This document shows positions 26,342 to 38,862 of a DNA stretch of 39,533 bases, one piece after another (within the stretch, counting starts at the first letter, position 1; each line of letters begins with the position of its first letter). Made by a program: the position numbers and the translations under genes. A model generated the notes under the pieces. It saw only the letters and a list, made by a program, of their open reading frames with translations, was not told the origin of the DNA and did no database searches. Source of the stretch: Kofleriaceae bacterium (GTDB taxonomy: Bacteria; Myxococcota_A; Polyangia; Haliangiales; Haliangiaceae); contig JANTGM010000052.1 of the NCBI GenBank assembly GCA_024762925.1, positions 1-39,533 of the forward strand, in the 5' to 3' direction.

Positions 26342-27538
26342 TTAGAAAATCTCGGGGCACCACGGAACACGAGCGCTGCCAAAGAGTCCATCAGCGCGCT
26401 CGATCATTTCGCGCGAGCCCGCAATCCTTCCAACTGCAGCCAGTTCTGATGGGAGGAATGCGCCAAGGTACAAGGAGGCTAGGTCCTGCCTTGCCAGTAA
26501 AATCCCTACCTGGCCGTGGTCTTCCTCGCATGACGCGCGACCGTTGGCGACCTGCAAATTGTAGGACTGATCTTCTCCTTGGAGCGAGATCGGAAGCTCT
26601 CCATCCTTTGCATACGAGCGCGACTCCAAGGCTGTCGGAATATCACGCAGCCGCAGCCAGAGCGTATCCGTTCGCTGTCTTCGCACACGTCGCCTGTCTT
26701 CGACGAGCCAGGGCAGGGCACAGTCGAGCGGAGCGTTCCAGTACGTGAGGTGTGGATAGAGGTCGAGGTGTGAGATGAAACGCCACAAGGTCTGCTCCGC
26801 CTTAAGATCTGCACCAAGGAGTTCGACAATCGACACCGAACCATCGAGGAGCCCGCGATCGTTTGCGGCAGTTTGGCGGTACAGAACATAGCCAACCATC
26901 GCGCCATCACGAACGGCTGTGGCGATTCGCAAAGTAGAACCTGAGCCGCGCCGGCCTGGACCATCATAGAGTGTGCGGTGTTGCCACCAAACTGCGCTGC
27001 GAGTGAAGTGCCCTGGGCGTGGCACAGAATTGTAGAGAGTCGGCAACTTCTCAAGGGCACGCTCCTTGTCGAGGAAGCGAATGCTGTCAGGCTCGAAGTC
27101 AGCTGCAAAACGCAGTGTTCTCGCATCGGTCTCCAGATAGTCCGATTCAGCAGCGACGCCGTAGCCAAAGCGCCCGTAGATCGAACTCTCCGAAGCCCAC
27201 AAACCACTTATGGCTTCGCTGTGCACAATCATGTCCTCTTCGTGCTTGGTCATGAGCGCACGCAAGACGCCTGTACGTCGATGACTAGGAAGAACACTCA
27301 CAAAGGTTAGGCCCGCCATCGGGACCGTACTGCCACCCGGAAGAGTGAGCTTCTGCTCAAAGGCACCGGCGGTTCCGACAAGCGCTTGGTCGTCAAACGC
27401 GCCATAGGCCCGTTTCACCCGCAAGACCTTGGCAAGTCTCGACTCTCCATCGCTCACGTCGCCGCCAAACGTCTGCATGGCGACCGCTTCATATCGCTCA
27501 AACTCAGCGCCTGTGATTGCGCGAACAGTGATCGGCAT
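26342..27538 (-). CDS. Eis-like GNAT acetyltransferase
   Basis: 398 aa, the usual length for the Eis family. The N-terminal GNAT domain has [18 protein letters not shown] with the acetyl-CoA pyrophosphate loop RRTGVL (about 87-92), preceded by MAGLTFVS. A second GNAT-like domain (about 190-290) and an SCP2-like C-terminal domain ending in a free carboxylate WCPEIF complete the architecture. Eis enzymes acetylate lysines or aminoglycosides at several amines. Substrate here is unknown. It is the upstream neighbour of the repeat-protein gene, 56 bases away. Confidence 0.85.
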
Positions 27539-29243: not shown

Positions 29244-31346
29244 GTGCAAAGCCGCTGGTACCACGTACCCCGAATTCATAGCCCAGGGCATGGGCAGGAG
29301 AAGAAGGTTGGATGGCTTGAGCTGTTCTACGACCTTATCTACGTAGCCACCTTCATCCAGCTTGGGAATGCGCTGAGCTACAACCTGAGTATCCAGGGCA
29401 CTCTAGCGTTTGCAGGTCTGTTGGTCCCTCTGTGGCTCACATGGACAGCGTTTACCTTCTACGCCAATCGATTCGATGTCGACGACCTAACGCATCGGGC
29501 GCTCACCTTTGTTCAGATGTTTGCCATCGGCGGCTTGGCGGTCTTGGTTAAAGACGTTTTCCGAGGCGAGACCATGCGATTTGCTCTCGTCTATGCGGCG
29601 GTGCGTCTTGTCATCGTCTTGCTCTATGCGCGCACCTACTGGCAGCAAACAAAGGCCAGGGACATGACAGGCCGCTTTGCAGTGGGCTTTGCGCTTGGAG
29701 CGGCTCTCTGGGGCTTCTCTGCGTTTCTGGACGCGCCGTGGGTCTACGTGTGCTGGGGGCTGGCAGTAGCAATTGACCTAGGTCTTCCTCTGGGACGCGC
29801 AACTCGAAGTTTGACGGGCCGCTATCCACCAGATGCCGCCCATCTGTCGGAGCGCTACGGCTTGCTTACACTCATCGTTTTGGGGGAGTCGTTCGTGAAG
29901 GTCTTGACCAGCGTCTCCGAAGTTGGCGGCACGATGGAACACGCGGTTACCGGAGCGATGGGGCTGTGCATCGTGTGCTCGCTGTGGTGGATCTATTTTG
30001 ACGATGTGGCCGGATCTCGAATCAAGGGCAGCTACCTCTCGGCAGTAGCTTGGGTCTACGCACACCTGCCTCTAACGATTGCCATTGTCGCAACTGGAGT
30101 CTCAATCAAGAAGGCTGTGTTCTTTGAGCTGACGGAAATTGCTCCAGAAGGGTACCGCTGGCTGCTCTGTTCAAGTCTCGCCCTGGTGCTCTTTTCGGTG
30201 GCCGCCATCGATGCTGTCACCGAAAGGCGGCAGTCAGAGTTCGGCGATCGCTATCGAACCGCCACACGCTTTGCCTCGGCGCTTTTTGTGCTCTTGCTCG
30301 CCGCGGCGGGGGGCGCTTTGCCTGCATGGGCGTTCTTTGGCCTGGTCGCCTTGTGTTGCCTCGTGCAGGTTCTCCTCGACTTGTTGATGGCTCCTCTGGC
30401 CGCGGATCACGAAATGCTTCATGAAGGCATGCAAGATGCGTTTGGCGTGGGGGAGGACATGGAGGACACTAGCGAAGAAGCAAGCCAACCACCCAAACGT
30501 CATGAGTTGCGGGCAGCGGTTCGCAAAGGCACACCATCAGAACTTCGGCGGGACCTCTATTTTCATCTGATGGATGGTTCCTGGTGGCTGATCTTCGGGA
30601 CGCTGCTTTTCCTTTTCTTCTTGTTCAACGGCATCTTCGCGGGGCTGTATCTGCTTGAGCCCAACTCCATTACGGGTGGCGATTCTGGTTCGCTATCCAG
30701 CGCATTCGCGTTCAGCGTGCAGACCATGACAACAATTGGCTATGGGACGCTCAGCCCCGGGACCGACTACGGTCACGTGCTGGTCACATGTGAGGCCATC
30801 GTTGGCATTCTTGGAACGGCGGTTGCGACAGGTCTCATGTTCGCAAAGGCGTCCAGACCTAGAACCAGTACACTCTTCTCGAAACCGGTGATTGTTACCA
30901 CGTTTCACGGCAAGCCCACGCTCATGTTTCGTGTGGGCAACGCGCGGGGCAACGAGATCGTTGAGGCGAGCATTAGCGTGTCAGCACTAATAGACGAAGT
31001 GAGCCCAGAGGGGCACAGCCTCAGGCGATTGCGAGACATCAAGCTCAAGCGAGCGACCTCACCGCTTTTTGTACTGACCTGGCAGGTACTGCACGTGCTT
31101 GACGAAACGTCACCGCTCTTTGGCCTCTCCGAAGAAACCCTAGAAGAGCGCTTGAGTCTCATGATCGTGAGCATGACGGGGCACGACGCCACCTATGGGC
31201 AGACGGTCCACGGACGCACGATCTACTATCCCGAAGCCTTCCGTTTTAATCATCGCTTTGAGGACGTGCTCTCCACTCTTGAGGATGGTCGTCTAATGGT
31301 CGACTACGACAGATTTCACAAGACGATCGCTGAATCGTCATCGTAA
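29244..31346 (+). CDS. LtrA domain fused to a KirBac-type potassium channel
   Basis: 700 aa with a GTG start. Residues about 18-395 form a multi-helix membrane domain starting KKVGWLELFYDLIYVATFI, the hallmark of LtrA (low temperature requirement A, function unknown), with LIVLGESFVKVL inside. An acidic linker (about 396-435) leads to a complete Kir module: slide helix RRDLYFHLMDGSW, outer helix (about 446-470), pore helix and selectivity filter TIGYG (497-501), inner helix (about 509-535), and the cytoplasmic immunoglobulin-like domain starting RPRTSTLFSKPVIVTTFHGK, with PTLMFRVGNARGNEIVEA. The channel should conduct K+. LtrA could be a sensor or regulator. The fusion has one open frame with no internal stop. 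Confidence 0.9.
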   Translation: MQSRWYHVPRIHSPGHGQEKKVGWLELFYDLIYVATFIQLGNALSYNLSIQGTLAFAGLLVPLWLTWTAFTFYANRFDVDDLTHRALTFVQMFAIGGLAVLVKDVFRGETMRFALVYAAVRLVIVLLYARTYWQQTKARDMTGRFAVGFALGAALWGFSAFLDAPWVYVCWGLAVAIDLGLPLGRATRSLTGRYPPDAAHLSERYGLLTLIVLGESFVKVLTSVSEVGGTMEHAVTGAMGLCIVCSLWWIYFDDVAGSRIKGSYLSAVAWVYAHLPLTIAIVATGVSIKKAVFFELTEIAPEGYRWLLCSSLALVLFSVAAIDAVTERRQSEFGDRYRTATRFASALFVLLLAAAGGALPAWAFFGLVALCCLVQVLLDLLMAPLAADHEMLHEGMQDAFGVGEDMEDTSEEASQPPKRHELRAAVRKGTPSELRRDLYFHLMDGSWWLIFGTLLFLFFLFNGIFAGLYLLEPNSITGGDSGSLSSAFAFSVQTMTTIGYGTLSPGTDYGHVLVTCEAIVGILGTAVATGLMFAKASRPRTSTLFSKPVIVTTFHGKPTLMFRVGNARGNEIVEASISVSALIDEVSPEGHSLRRLRDIKLKRATSPLFVLTWQVLHVLDETSPLFGLSEETLEERLSLMIVSMTGHDATYGQTVHGRTIYYPEAFRFNHRFEDVLSTLEDGRLMVDYDRFHKTIAESSS

Positions 31347-33403: not shown

Positions 33404-33766
33404 AAGCACCTCTCTTCACAGCAGGGGCTGCGAGATGTTCTGAGAGGCGTGATGCAGGTGCAGGCCCGGGCGCTTGTAGCAACGTCGATGTTCAAGAGAT
33501 CAAGCTAATTGTAGCCATCCGCAACCAAGGTTGCGGGGACTACAATTCATCGCAATAGATCTGTGGTGCCACAATCGCCTAGATCCAGCTGGAAGTTCGA
33601 TGTGTGATGAGTTAGGCGATGTGCGCCTTGGTGGTGAAGCATTTGTGGGTGAGGGACCACATGCATGGGGGGGAAATCCCCGAATTTCTCCAAGCACATA
33701 GATCGCAAGGCCCAAATAGTGCGAAGCACACAAGCTTTGCAATCGCCTTCTGGCATCACACTTGCC
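33404..33766 (+). other. structured intergenic region
   Basis: No gene is evident. It carries a long hairpin at 33507-33547, a second 8-bp inverted repeat ATCGCCTA/TAGGCGAT (33574-33581 and 33613-33620) around the palindrome CCAGCTGG, and a GGGG/CCCC hairpin near 33667-33681. The density of inverted repeats suggests a structured RNA or an element remnant. Confidence 0.4.
33507..33547 (+). ncRNA. candidate structured RNA hairpin
   Basis: AATTGTAG (33507-33514) pairs with CTACAATT (33540-33547). Inside, CCGCAACC (33519-33526) pairs with GGTTGCGG (33529-33536), or its inner 7 bp close a CAAG tetraloop. Only CCAT/GGA remain unpaired. No T-run follows, so it is not a standard terminator. Function unknown. 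Confidence 0.35.
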
Positions 33767-33772
33767 TATATT
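33767..33772 (+). promoter_or_regulatory. putative -10 (TATATT) for the DUF1592 gene
   Basis: TATATT ends six bases before ATG 33779. It favours that start over the longer open frame. Confidence 0.45.
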
Positions 33773-33778
33773 CCTCGC

Positions 33779-35413
33779 ATGCGGGGAATCTCAAGAGCCA
33801 TGCAGCTCTCGCTGTTGGCGGGTAGCATTGCGTTTACAGCTGGCTGTGACGGCATCATCAACAACCAGGGTGATGGAGAGGACTTGGCGGAAGCACCAAG
33901 GTTCCCTCGCCTCACCAACGATCAGTGGCAGCAGACGGTAACCGATCTTCTGTACCTCGATGAGCCACTCGCCTTAACGGTTGCGCTACAAGCCGACCCA
34001 CCTTTGGGACGCTTCGACAACAACATCGCTCGGCTGGCGTTTAGTGCGGCTCACTGGCGCAGCTTTCAACGAGCAGCGGAAGAGGTCGCCTCGTTGGCTT
34101 CGCAGGATGAAGCCATCGTGCAAGCGCTTTCGCCGGCAGACCTCCCCTCGGAGCTTGCGGCTCAGGGAGAAGCCTTGGTTGAGACTCTTGGGCCTCGCGC
34201 GTACCGGCGACCGCTCAGCGCATCAGAGGTTGAGGCGTACCAAGCTGTATTCACCGATGGTGCGAACCACTATCCAGACCAACCTCCGTATGAGGCTGGA
34301 CTTCGGCTCGTTCTCGAGACCATGCTGCAATCCCCACACTTTCTATATCGCGTCGAGGACAGCACGTCTGACAGTGGCGCGGTTAAGCTCGATGGCTACG
34401 AAGTCGCCAATCGCCTCTCGTTTGCATTCTGGAACACCATGCCGAGCGATGAACTCTTCGCTGCTGCCAAGTCCGGGGAACTCGACAATGAGGCAGGCGT
34501 TCGCGAGTGGGCCGAAACCCTGTTTGATGACGACCGCACCAGCAAGCAGTTTCGCAGCTTTCACGTGCAGGCATTTGAGATGGCTGAGTACACCGACCTG
34601 GACAAGAACGAGGAACTCTTCCCGCAGTGGAATCGTGAAGTCGGCTCTGCCATGCTCGACGAATCTGCACGCTTCTTAGAAGGTGAGGTTTTCGGCGGGG
34701 GAGGAATACGAGAAATTCTTACCTCAAATCGAACGTACGTGAATGCCGACTTGGCTGCCCTCTACGGCCTCGAGGGTGACTACAACGAAGAGTTCGTTCC
34801 CGTTGACCTCAACCGCTCCGAGCGCTCTGGTATCCTCACTCGGCTAGGCTTCCTAACTCGAAACGCAACGCTCAGCCAAAGTGACCCGATTCATCGTGGC
34901 GTCTTTGTAAACCTCAACCTCTTGTGCCGGCCCTTGTCTGCGCCACCCGAGCTGCCGGATGTGCTCGACATGGTTGGAGATACCAATCGCGAGCGGGTTG
35001 ACTCTGTCACTGGAGTTGGAACTTGTGGAGAGGGCTGTCATGCAACTCTTATCAACCCGATTGGATTTTCCTTGGAGCACTACGATGCACTTGGCCAGTA
35101 CCGCGAGGAGGAGAGCGGTTTCCCTGTTGATGCGGCAGATGTCTACACATTCGCCTCGGGGGAGCAGCTCGTGTTCAATGACGCCCTTGAGCTGAGCGAA
35201 CAGCTTGCCGAGTCCACCGAAGTGCACGCTTGCTACATCCAGCAACTTCTTGAGTACCTTCTTGGACGAGACCTTGGCGCCGAGGACATGGCACTGGTGG
35301 AAGCGTATGCCGTTGAATCGGTGGAAACTGGGATCAGCGTTCGAGAAATCATCTTACGAGTGGTTGAGAGCCGCGCCTTCCGATACCGAGTTGCACAAGG
35401 AGGTGCACTATGA
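33779..35413 (+). CDS. lipoprotein of DUF1587/1595/1592/1588/1585 architecture
   Basis: 544 aa from ATG 33779. The signal peptide ends LLAGSIAFTAGC. Domains follow in the family order: DUF1587-like (PRLTNDQWQQTVTDLL), DUF1595 (LGPRAYRRPLSASEVEAY), DUF1592 (GYEVANRLSFAFWNTMPSDE), DUF1588 (RSGILTRLGFLTRNATLSQS) and DUF1585 (LLEYLLGRDL, VREIILRVVESRAFRYR). The DUF1588 haem-like motif is CGEGCH, that is CX3CH rather than the canonical CXXCH. Such proteins occur in Planctomycetes and Myxococcota beside DUF1552 partners and are thought to work in the envelope. The function is not established. The stop overlaps the next gene by 4 bases (ATGA). Confidence 0.85.
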   Translation: MRGISRAMQLSLLAGSIAFTAGCDGIINNQGDGEDLAEAPRFPRLTNDQWQQTVTDLLYLDEPLALTVALQADPPLGRFDNNIARLAFSAAHWRSFQRAAEEVASLASQDEAIVQALSPADLPSELAAQGEALVETLGPRAYRRPLSASEVEAYQAVFTDGANHYPDQPPYEAGLRLVLETMLQSPHFLYRVEDSTSDSGAVKLDGYEVANRLSFAFWNTMPSDELFAAAKSGELDNEAGVREWAETLFDDDRTSKQFRSFHVQAFEMAEYTDLDKNEELFPQWNREVGSAMLDESARFLEGEVFGGGGIREILTSNRTYVNADLAALYGLEGDYNEEFVPVDLNRSERSGILTRLGFLTRNATLSQSDPIHRGVFVNLNLLCRPLSAPPELPDVLDMVGDTNRERVDSVTGVGTCGEGCHATLINPIGFSLEHYDALGQYREEESGFPVDAADVYTFASGEQLVFNDALELSEQLAESTEVHACYIQQLLEYLLGRDLGAEDMALVEAYAVESVETGISVREIILRVVESRAFRYRVAQGGAL

Positions 35414-36804
35414 TTAGTCGACGTCGATTCCTTGCAGGACTTGGTGGCGCCATGGTCGCGCTGCCAGCATTGGAGAGCGTGAAATTTCTTGGAGGCAGTG
35501 CGAAAGCTGCCGGCAAAGAGAATCCCGTGTTCTCGGTATTTGTTCGCCAAGGCAACGGCTGCCAACAAGCAATCTCTGGGCGCGATGAGCCCGACAGATT
35601 CTGGCCAAGCGCGCTTGGAGCTCTCACACAAGACTCACTTGCAAACAGCGACTCGGATCGGGCGGTATCTGAATTGGCTGAGTATGCCGACTCCCTCTTG
35701 ATGGTTAGTGGCACGCGATATGCTTTTCCAGGCAATGGGTGCGGCCACACCGGTGGGCTCAATCAGTGTCTCACTGCCGCCAAAGTAACCGGCGAGGGAA
35801 AGGACTCTCTCGCCGATGGAGAGAGCATCGATTGGTTTCTATCCCAGCAAGTGAACCCCGCGGGAATTGAGCCTCTCAATCTCATGAGTGGCCCCCAAAG
35901 TGCGTACATTGCTCATGGACTCTCCTACAGTGGTCCGCAGCAGTTGAGGGGCGCATCCAACAATCCCTTTGCGGTCTATCAAGATCTGGTTGGGCTTGCT
36001 GGCGCGTCCCAAGAACTCTTAGAAGCGATTGCACTTCGACGACGCAGCGTCAACGACTTAGTGCGCGACGAGATGCAAGACCTTCTTGGCAAGAGCTATC
36101 TATCGGCGGCCGACAGGGAACGGCTGCAAACGCACTTTGATGTGATTCGTGACATCGAGGTGAATATGAGCTGCCAACTCACCGACAGCGAAGTCATGGC
36201 ACTCGAAGACATCTCGGGTGCTGCCGAAGACAACGGCAATCGAATCGCTGTTGCTGAGATGATGATGGATCTCATTGCGATGGCGTTCTCATGCGATGCC
36301 AATCGAGTTGCGACACTGCAGATCGGCACTGGCAACGACGGTACCCGCTACACGGTGAATGGCGAGCTTCAGAATACCTTCCACCGCATTTCCCACCGCA
36401 TTGATGGAGACGGCAGTGAGGGCGCTCCGATTCCCAACGCCGACCTTCTGCACCACGAAATCGATCGCATCTACGCACGCATGTTCAAACATCTGCTCGA
36501 CCGACTCTCGCTCTACACCAGTGCCAGTGGTGCTCCGCTCTTAGACGACACGATGGCTCTTTGGACGAATGACCTTGCGAGCGGGCCACCTCATTCGTAT
36601 CGCAATCTTCCCCAGATCGTGGCGGGGAAAGCTGGCGGTTTTCTCAAGACCGGCCAATACATTGACGCGGGAGACGTCACTCACAACAAGTTCCTCAATA
36701 CGCTGATCAGCGCTGCCGGCGTGTGCAAGGCGGACCAGAGCCCATACGATAGCTTTGGGGATGCGGAGCTGGAGGCCGGTGTCATTCCTGAGATGATCGC
36801 CTAG
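35410..36804 (+). CDS. Tat-exported DUF1552-family protein
   Basis: 464 aa. The twin-arginine signal is MISRRRFLAGLGGAMVALP. The body carries DUF1552 landmarks: SVFVRQGNGCQQ, SGTRYAFPGNGCGHTGGL, YIAHGLSYSGPQQLRG, EMMMDLIAMAFSCDANRVAT, TVNGELQNTFHRISHRIDG, DTMALWTNDLASGPPHSYRN and ending in GDAELEAGVIPEMIA. The fold resembles sulfatase or DUF1501-type proteins exported by Tat. It is cotranscribed and translationally coupled to the DUF1592 lipoprotein, and the pair probably acts as one exported complex. Confidence 0.88.
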   Translation: MISRRRFLAGLGGAMVALPALESVKFLGGSAKAAGKENPVFSVFVRQGNGCQQAISGRDEPDRFWPSALGALTQDSLANSDSDRAVSELAEYADSLLMVSGTRYAFPGNGCGHTGGLNQCLTAAKVTGEGKDSLADGESIDWFLSQQVNPAGIEPLNLMSGPQSAYIAHGLSYSGPQQLRGASNNPFAVYQDLVGLAGASQELLEAIALRRRSVNDLVRDEMQDLLGKSYLSAADRERLQTHFDVIRDIEVNMSCQLTDSEVMALEDISGAAEDNGNRIAVAEMMMDLIAMAFSCDANRVATLQIGTGNDGTRYTVNGELQNTFHRISHRIDGDGSEGAPIPNADLLHHEIDRIYARMFKHLLDRLSLYTSASGAPLLDDTMALWTNDLASGPPHSYRNLPQIVAGKAGGFLKTGQYIDAGDVTHNKFLNTLISAAGVCKADQSPYDSFGDAELEAGVIPEMIA

Positions 36805-36906: not shown

Positions 36907-38862
36907 ATGTCCCTTTTCTCCAGGAGCGCCAAGGCGATCGCATCGCGGATCGGTGGAGCGGCCGAGGCCTTACATCTGGCCGAGCGCAAAGCAAAGGCTG
37001 AGCGTTGGGTGGTTGCTCGCCGCAGGCTGCTGAGTGAGGTGGCGATTTGGTATCACGCGGACTATGCGGCACCTGGCTTGGCTCAGTCGGCCCGCATGCC
37101 GAATGTCGATCTGGAGCGCGGTCACAAAGTCGTTCATGCGCTGGAAGCCCTGGGGCTCTTGTGGGAGCGTGATGTTCGCAAGGGCGCTCCCATATCACTG
37201 CAGGCCCTGCTCAAAGCGCATAGCTACGAGTATTTGGAGTCGGTTACCGAGGCAGAGAAGCTTGCGCCGATTTTTGGGCTCGAGCCGCAAGACGTGCATG
37301 TCGATGTGCTTCTGAAGTCGCAGCGCAGGGCTGCAGGAGGCACCTTGCAGGCGAGTCGTTGGGCCCATGCGAGAAGAGGGCGTCGCGCATTTAATCTCGG
37401 TGGTGGATTTCATCATGCCGAGCCTGAGCGCGGAGCGGGGTTTTGCGTTTACAACGACATCGCCGCAAGCATCTTGAGCCTCCGTGCGAGTGGATTTCGA
37501 GAGCCCTGCGCAATCGTCGATCTGGACTTTCACCAGGGAAACGGCAACAGCATCGCATTCGCCGAGGACGCCACCGTGTTGACCTACTCGCTGCACGGCG
37601 CTGTTTGGAGCCATCTTGAGGCAGTGGCAGATGTCTCGATCACACTTCCTACCGGCACACTGGACGAAGCCTATCTGACCGAACTCCGGCGCACGCTTCC
37701 ACCGCTTCTTAGGGCACATCGTCCTCAACTCATCTACTACGTTGCGGGTACCGATGTACTCGCCACAGATGCCTTGGGAGACTTCTCCCTGAGCCAGCAA
37801 GGCGTCTTCGAGCGAGACAAGTTTGTGCTGGAACTTGCCGACGCACTTGAGGCGTCTACGGTGATTACCCTCGCAGGCGGCTACTCCCAGGACTCGTGGA
37901 GGTCAGCAGCGCGCATGGTCTACTGGGCCCTCACCGGTAGCAACAATCCACTGCCCCAAAACGACGACGACATTCGACAGGCCTTCGGTCACATAGCGAG
38001 CGGACTCGATCCATATGAGCTGCAGTTTGAAGACGATGAGGCGTTTCAAATCACCGAGGCCGATTTGATGGGTGAGCTTGAAGGCGTTCCAACGGCCAAT
38101 CGAATCCTCGGCTACTACTCGGTGCACGGGGTTGAGCTTGCATTCGAGCGCTACGGATTTCTGGATGCCCTTAGGAAACGCGGGTTTCGCGACTTGCGGT
38201 TTCAGGTTGATCCCCGTAACCCGGATCGGCAGCGAATATCGATCTATGGGAGCGTGGATCACAAGATGTATCACCTCTTGATGGAGCTCTTGGTGTCGCG
38301 CCGCAGCGTGGATTTTTTTGCGGTTGGGGCGGATGAGCCGTTGGACATGCTGTCAATTGAGTGGCTCTTGCTGCAAGACCCAACTCGGAACTTTACTGAG
38401 TCGCGACCGAGACTCCCCGGGCAAGAATACCCAGGTTTGGGACTTGTGCGCGAGCTCATGGAGATGCTCTACCAGGCCTGTATTCGCATCAAGCTCGATG
38501 GAATCATTCTGCATCCATCGCGGTTTCATATTGCTGCCGTTGCTGCTGGGCAGGGCGTATTCCTAGACCCAGCAATCGAGGGGCGGTTTCGGGCGCTTTC
38601 CGAGGCTCTTGATTCGAGCGACCTCTCTTCGGTCTCCAGCTTGATAGAACGACAAATGGTGGTGCGCCGAGATGGACGCGTTTTTGCGTGGGAGGCAGAG
38701 GACTTTGTGGTCCCTGTGAGTACACGCTTGCGTGACTACCTTGGGTCTGCGTCATACCGAGATGCACAACGTGCCGCAAAAGATCAGGCTCTGGCCGATG
38801 GAATCTTTCGACGAGGTCCGAAGGGGGCGGAGAGAGCTTCGCGCCACCAACCACCGTCCTAA
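36907..38862 (+). CDS. class IV-like histone deacetylase homologue with long C-terminal extension
   Basis: 651 aa. The deacetylase core (about 45-345) holds GGGFHHAEPERGAG (catalytic His pair near 170), VDLDFHQGNGNS (zinc-ligand Asp and His near 205-209), AGTDVLATDALGDFSLS (third zinc-ligand Asp) and GGYSQDSW (catalytic Tyr near 326). DLDxHQGNG and GTDxLxxDxLG match class IV-type enzymes and related bacterial members. The last 300 residues form extra domains: about 380-495 (LGYYSVHGVELAFERYGFLD, ISIYGSVDHKMYHLLMELLV) and 495-625 (LVRELMEMLYQACIRIKLDG, HPSRFHIAAVAAGQG). I do not recognise them. All catalytic residues are present, so activity is likely. The substrate could be an acyl-lysine or small amide. 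Confidence 0.85.
   Translation: MSLFSRSAKAIASRIGGAAEALHLAERKAKAERWVVARRRLLSEVAIWYHADYAAPGLAQSARMPNVDLERGHKVVHALEALGLLWERDVRKGAPISLQALLKAHSYEYLESVTEAEKLAPIFGLEPQDVHVDVLLKSQRRAAGGTLQASRWAHARRGRRAFNLGGGFHHAEPERGAGFCVYNDIAASILSLRASGFREPCAIVDLDFHQGNGNSIAFAEDATVLTYSLHGAVWSHLEAVADVSITLPTGTLDEAYLTELRRTLPPLLRAHRPQLIYYVAGTDVLATDALGDFSLSQQGVFERDKFVLELADALEASTVITLAGGYSQDSWRSAARMVYWALTGSNNPLPQNDDDIRQAFGHIASGLDPYELQFEDDEAFQITEADLMGELEGVPTANRILGYYSVHGVELAFERYGFLDALRKRGFRDLRFQVDPRNPDRQRISIYGSVDHKMYHLLMELLVSRRSVDFFAVGADEPLDMLSIEWLLLQDPTRNFTESRPRLPGQEYPGLGLVRELMEMLYQACIRIKLDGIILHPSRFHIAAVAAGQGVFLDPAIEGRFRALSEALDSSDLSSVSSLIERQMVVRRDGRVFAWEAEDFVVPVSTRLRDYLGSASYRDAQRAAKDQALADGIFRRGPKGAERASRHQPPS

Follow-up and report, generated by a model that had tools for sequence, protein, structure and literature searches.

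In Bacillus, three separate proteins act jointly on AcsA: the GNAT acetyltransferase AcuA acetylates it, the histone deacetylase (HDAC)-like AcuC deacetylates it (PMC13121692), and the ligand-sensing regulator AcuB, which binds adenine nucleotides or Ap4A, is reported to inhibit AcuC (PMC13039410, PMC13121692). AcuB is described with CBS (Bateman) and ACT domains and no GNAT fold; since it inhibits AcuC, a bacterial HDAC controlled by a ligand-binding partner is not without precedent. In Mycobacterium tuberculosis ICL2, a GNAT-like domain with reportedly no sequence homology to known proteins binds acetyl-coenzyme A (acetyl-CoA), and binding is accompanied by a large rearrangement and an increase in enzyme activity of about 50-fold (PMC6788997). 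Human O-GlcNAcase (OGA) is a hydrolase that removes a protein modification and is followed C-terminally by a pseudo-GNAT domain of doubtful activity (PMC3919268). Here, we analyzed a stretch of 39,533 nucleotides from a Kofleriaceae bacterium (assembly GCA_024762925.1, contig JANTGM010000052.1), hereafter the window, that encodes a class IV-like HDAC continued by a long C-terminal extension, in our best reading a divergent GNAT fold. A search of open-licence literature on HDACs, GNATs, fusions and Myxococcota returned no paper on such a fusion, and the word stem Myxococc is absent from the main text of two papers on bacterial or class IV HDACs.

The deacylase half of this fusion protein matched PF00850 with 169.9 bits, against a gathering score of 27.9 (E 1.1e-49, residues 70-340), and in the draft genome (6.8 Mb, completeness 98%) the fusion protein alone matched this family. 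Its six catalytic residues, H169, H170, D207, H209, D288 and Y326, among them D207, H209 and D288 as presumed zinc ligands, were all retained in 82/83 sequences when the window was aligned with 82 relatives. The sole exception, the fused relative L137 (1609-3642), has lost the His pair, the zinc ligands and the Tyr in its HDAC half and by its sequence is likely a pseudo-deacylase. When residues 1-350 were compared with PDB sequences, the two top matches were 9rje_A (E 8.7e-36), Chlamydomonas HDAC11-1, and 9gz5_A (E 6.3e-35), a chain with the same sequence as 9RJD, Leptospira HDAC11. Because these closest solved relatives are class IV HDAC11 enzymes, we use the label class IV-like, and the GGGFHH motif is present as well. 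With them, and with cluster 5 of a published classification (PMC11532494), the fusion protein shares the HDAC core and the catalytic residues. The initial annotation had called the core complete and class IV-like, and this stands. The two solved chains, however, comprise 319 and 305 residues, whereas the fusion protein continues with some 290 residues of a second domain. The GGGFHH motif also occurs in human HDAC11 and was linked to an extended product cavity for longer acyl chains (PMC11532494). Active class IV enzymes reportedly prefer medium to long chains, with shorter ones preferred at the base of their tree, and for clade A enzymes no activity on peptides was reported (PMC13325672). From its sequence, the fusion protein is best read as a class IV, HDAC11-type deacylase that depends on zinc; its substrate may lie anywhere within this range of chain lengths.

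The extension itself had been noted as some 300 unexplained residues, and unexplained by sequence it stays: residues 351-651 matched nothing in Pfam-A or NCBIfam and nothing convincing among PDB sequences, where two helicase chains appeared (E 0.98 and 1.2). No PDB chain was found at E<=10 with a profile built from 24 extension relatives, and none of the 24 members scanned matched a Pfam GNAT family. Weak single-member matches to Tsi3 (0.017, 2/24 members) and to a transglutaminase core (0.01, 1/24) were taken as chance. These Pfam, NCBIfam, PDB sequence and profile searches rule out a known domain at the sequence level. No curated family covers the extension, which is hence not a familiar domain commonly attached to HDACs, and annotation from the Pfam and NCBIfam libraries leaves it unnamed. 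Nor is it a chance read-through, because it is conserved across the phylum and evolves under constraint. Between the window and a genus-mate, the extension is 79% identical, with a rough ratio of nonsynonymous to synonymous substitution rates (dN/dS) of 0.05-0.07, compared with 0.03-0.05 in the HDAC half, dS being near saturation in both. Both halves are thus under purifying selection in this pair.

AlphaFold2 (AF2) predicts the extension to be one compact conserved domain, so that the two separate folded parts once proposed for it are ruled out on this model. With 112 alignment rows the prediction reached a mean predicted local distance difference test score (pLDDT) of 92.4 and a predicted template modelling score (pTM) of 0.89, whereas two rows gave a pLDDT of 34. 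The rows comprise the window and 111 of 117 eligible domain copies that remained after redundancy removal, partial domains being excluded; model residue n corresponds to protein residue n+357. In a Foldseek search of the PDB, all 13 matches at E<=1e-3 were GNAT folds (11 M. tuberculosis ICL2 chains and two KacT), with the acetyl-CoA-binding domain of ICL2 at the top. VIA-align, among the matches listed, placed NatD first (Z 8.7, 148 residues aligned, root-mean-square deviation 4.0), followed by AtaT, KacT, NAT10 and ICL2, and all six matches at Z>=8 were NatD. Its best 50 rows were GNAT-superfamily chains or complexes containing one, if we count four ribosome-precursor rows that we presume to represent NAT10/Kre33. 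At the level of the predicted model, and only there, the extension thus groups with GNAT folds. A viral structure library gave no match to the domain model at E<=1e-3.

A first hint at function comes from the segment ahead of the helix at model residue 157, which reads Q-x-x-P-G-L-G-x-[G/A] in the family and LPGQEYPGLGLV in the window. Q149 (Q506) and G153 (G510) are invariant in 112/112 rows and G155 is kept in 109/112; in the fused rows alone the counts are 75/75 for the first two and 74/75 for G155. G155 together with the final Gly or Ala occurs in 57/75 fused and 31/37 separate rows. In described GNATs, a Q/R-x-x-G-x-G/A motif before helix α3 binds the CoA pyrophosphate (PMC4964394). The invariant Q149 and G153 and the nearly invariant G155 therefore suggest a ligand site shared by fused and separate copies. 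As the loop is a variant of the GNAT motif, we state CoA binding as a possibility only.

Which copies are fused and which are not turned out to be informative. Homologues of the extension occur in 23/95 genomes of relatives, the window's own included, and a 24-member profile found the extension in 126/377 Myxococcota genomes. We collected 138 loci from 135 genomes, with some 10 weaker or fragmentary places from the 377-genome search left out; 84 genomes had fused copies only, in one frame behind the HDAC, 49 separate copies only and two both. Where a contig ended or the frame was shifted (e.g., L088, L117, L184), loci may have been miscounted as separate or split. The HDAC always comes first in fused copies, and separate copies are proteins of about 300 residues. 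No HDAC gene was found in the flanking DNA fetched around separate copies, including 0/20 in the loci whose flanks mostly spanned some 9 kb each. Because at least nine genomes hold a separate copy and lack any PF00850 match (G077, G100, G165, G197, G258, G302, G309, G324, G341), the domain is evidently able to work without an HDAC. Viral contigs and plasmids yielded no relatives of the extension. Three of the copies without HDAC (L089, L081, L095) carry 270-600 residues ahead of the domain with no Pfam match, either real extra domains or the result of wrong start codons.

Fused and separate copies differ at the start of helix α4, which reads H-N-A-x-x-Y in the latter. Tyr189 was found in 37/37 separate versus 3/75 fused copies and Asn185 in 34/37 versus 1/75, while His184 is retained in 74/75 fused copies. 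The window has Ala546 in place of the Tyr and thus lacks the α4 Tyr that serves as general acid in an active GNAT. Tyr189 lies 32 residues past the loop, and ordinary GNATs of the same genome have a Tyr 31-37 residues past their loop motif in 9/12 proteins judged, about three being without it. Of 14 such GNATs, two had no motif match, and the only match in L207 lay so close to the end of the excerpt that it could not be assessed; counting the first match per protein, 11 or 12 could be judged, depending on double matches. In PA4794 the equivalent Tyr is reported to be essential, and an Asn contributes to catalysis (PMC4964394). The earlier proposal that the extension delivers substrate or acts as a second enzyme hence holds in part: the predicted fold is that of an enzyme superfamily and the separate copies keep acyltransferase-type residues, but the Asn/Tyr pair is gone in the window and in nearly all fused copies. 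For the same reason, a regulatory, acyl-CoA-binding role seems likelier to us than that of a working second enzyme.

We tentatively favour, as a possible rather than a probable solution, that the protein combines a deacylase with an attached GNAT-fold domain, probably devoid of transferase activity, which senses acyl-CoA and thereby switches deacylation. The fused domain would most likely no longer transfer acyl groups, yet could still bind acetyl-CoA or another acyl-CoA, as the conserved segment, the predicted fold and the analogy to ICL2 suggest. Binding would alter the packing of the GNAT-fold domain on the deacylase, and this change might switch deacylation with acyl-CoA supply. ICL2, the top Foldseek match, is a lyase for which acetyl-CoA binding and activation were measured, whereas we infer both for the fusion protein, along with loss of catalysis, the allosteric nature of the control and the chain length of the substrate. 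Since control of reversible lysine acylation in bacteria is poorly known, such a protein would be of interest: deacylation would be tied to acyl-CoA supply by a built-in domain, in a fusion that is present in 86/135 domain-carrying Myxococcota genomes examined.

Several results weigh against this reading. Query-normalised Foldseek TM-scores were low (0.23-0.33 among the matches listed), and VIA-align Z scores peaked at 8.7 and were mostly below 8, values at which the tool itself cautions against common arrangements; the GNAT relation must therefore be distant. In hhalign comparisons with the 14 GNATs of the same genome, the probability was 0.5%, no higher than for 14 decoys (0-2.2%). Sequence profiles thus show no significant similarity to GNATs, given that no Pfam GNAT family matched either, although the best single hhalign piece, not significant, aligned the PGLG segment and the following helix with the GNAT loop and helix. 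Low scores and the absent sequence-level support, also in the PDB profile search, would equally fit an extension that is no GNAT relative and whose matches reflect a common α/β arrangement. We regard this as very improbable, because all Foldseek matches at E<=1e-3 and all VIA-align rows listed were GNAT-related, with no mixture of folds, and because the loop and the Asn/Tyr pair stand at GNAT-like places and spacing. The best reading thus stays with a divergent GNAT fold of distant relation.

The loop likewise speaks on both sides. The window reads P-G-L-G-L-V and so departs from the GNAT consensus, with Pro at the Q/R place in the hhalign register and Val514 at the last; the invariant Gln precedes that Pro by three residues. 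Together with the missing Asn and Tyr, this imperfect loop would suit an inert scaffold without CoA or acyl-group binding, used for dimerisation or to hold substrate proteins, similar to the pseudo-histone-acetyltransferase (pseudo-HAT) domain of human OGA, a hydrolase of comparable layout. OGA was, however, reported to lack the loop motif (PMC3919268), whereas the loop region of the fusion protein, off consensus as it is, is highly conserved, with Q149 and G153 unchanged in every fused row. A scaffold appears rather unlikely to us on these grounds, and we retain the acyl-CoA sensor as the preferred reading.

Loss of the Tyr, moreover, is no proof of inactivity, since some mosquito AANATs are reported with Val or Ala at this position (PMC4964394) and about 3/12 of the ordinary GNATs do without it. 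An active acyltransferase could then sit in one chain with the HDAC that removes the same group, writer and eraser combined as if AcuA and AcuC were joined. The GNAT fold of the predicted model and Y47, W129, Q149 and H184, which are strongly conserved in both fused and separate copies, are compatible with this, as are three fused copies that depart from the rule: Tyr189 is retained in L100, L180 and L104, and in L100 Asn185 as well. For the family as a whole we nevertheless think a writer-eraser clearly unlikely. Tyr is gone from 72/75 and Asn from 74/75 fused copies while all or nearly all separate copies keep them, the loop of the window is imperfect, and the likeness to AcuA and AcuC may be no more than analogy. 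A more far-reaching form of the sensor reading, to which we give somewhat less credence than to the sensor as such, would see in this family a widespread bacterial deacylase under direct acyl-CoA control, exerted by an acetyltransferase domain that has given up catalysis: the former writer would now be the sensor that governs the eraser; L100-like members with Asn and Tyr would then still be writer-erasers.

How the two forms arose is suggested only in outline by a tree of the domain copies, built with a quick method after removal of the α4 columns. It requires three changes for the fused label and three for the Tyr label, and L100 and L180 cluster with the separate copies (support 96). Because the backbone is poorly resolved, the correlation between fusion and Tyr may rest on one or few events. 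The tree gives no direction, so that the pair may have been lost on fusion or gained in separate copies. As a natural experiment, the two forms bear on the way in which an acetyltransferase fold might part with its catalytic pair once it is fused to an enzyme of opposite action.

Positions in the window of the fusion gene and of the features discussed
Feature	Position	Strand	Basis
HDAC-GNAT-fold fusion open reading frame (ORF), 651 residues, ATG start, uninterrupted	36907..38862	+	ORF translation
HDAC domain PF00850, class IV-like	37114..37926	+	Pfam match, residues 70-340
Catalytic His pair H169-H170 in GGGFHH	37411..37416	+	alignment; kept in 82/83 fused sequences
D207 and H209 (DLDFH), presumed zinc ligands	37525..37533	+	alignment; kept in 82/83
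D288, presumed zinc ligand	37768..37770	+	alignment; kept in 82/83
Catalytic Y326 (AGGY)	37882..37884	+	alignment; kept in 82/83
C-terminal domain with predicted GNAT fold, residues 358-639 as modelled	37978..38823	+	AF2 model, Foldseek, VIA-align
CoA-loop-like segment, residues 503-514	38413..38448	+	alignment; putative loop role, given its place ahead of that helix (model residue 157)
Start of helix α4, H541-I542-A543-A544-V545-A546	38527..38544	+	alignment; 542 usually Asn and 546 Tyr in separate copies

Gene neighbourhoods are a further point on the opposing side: across the fused loci examined, none backs an acyl-CoA role. No neighbour was conserved across fused loci, where a Pfam scan covered 21 of 54 close neighbours on the same strand (one at L097 and 20 others). 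In five close relatives of one genus (L096-L099, L101), a gene similar to thiamine pyrophosphate (TPP)-dependent 2-hydroxyacyl-CoA lyases or acetolactate synthases lies directly upstream of the fusion, preceded in some, e.g., L097, by a hotdog thioesterase-like gene. We did not use this neighbour as evidence, because it is limited to one genus and the fusion elsewhere stands beside unrelated genes (M16 peptidase, AcrB, ABC, UvrC, polyphosphate kinase, Lon). Separate copies of one lineage (L061, L067, L069, L070, L074, L084, L133 and others) adjoin a TIGR04551 protein, a small unnamed protein, which at L133 has a lipoprotein-like start, and PHO4/DUF47 phosphate genes.

In the window, the fusion gene is preceded by two overlapping genes on the + strand, which gave no evidence of a relation to it. 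The first (33665-35413) encodes a PSD/PSCyt-type protein (DUF1592, 1588, 1595, 1585, 1587) and the second (35410-36804) a DUF1552 protein (HXXSHH) with a weak match to a twin-arginine translocation (Tat) signal. A distinct gene on the - strand (26342-27538) has a weak match to an ordinary GNAT (27230-27412, E 3.4e-4). Finally, an ORF of 700 residues (29244-31346, +) has an LtrA domain (residues 21-374, E 3.5e-77) joined to a potassium channel of the inward-rectifier type, comprising a transmembrane part and IRK_C (residues 544-695, E 1.2e-24), in what looks like an unusual membrane protein fusion.
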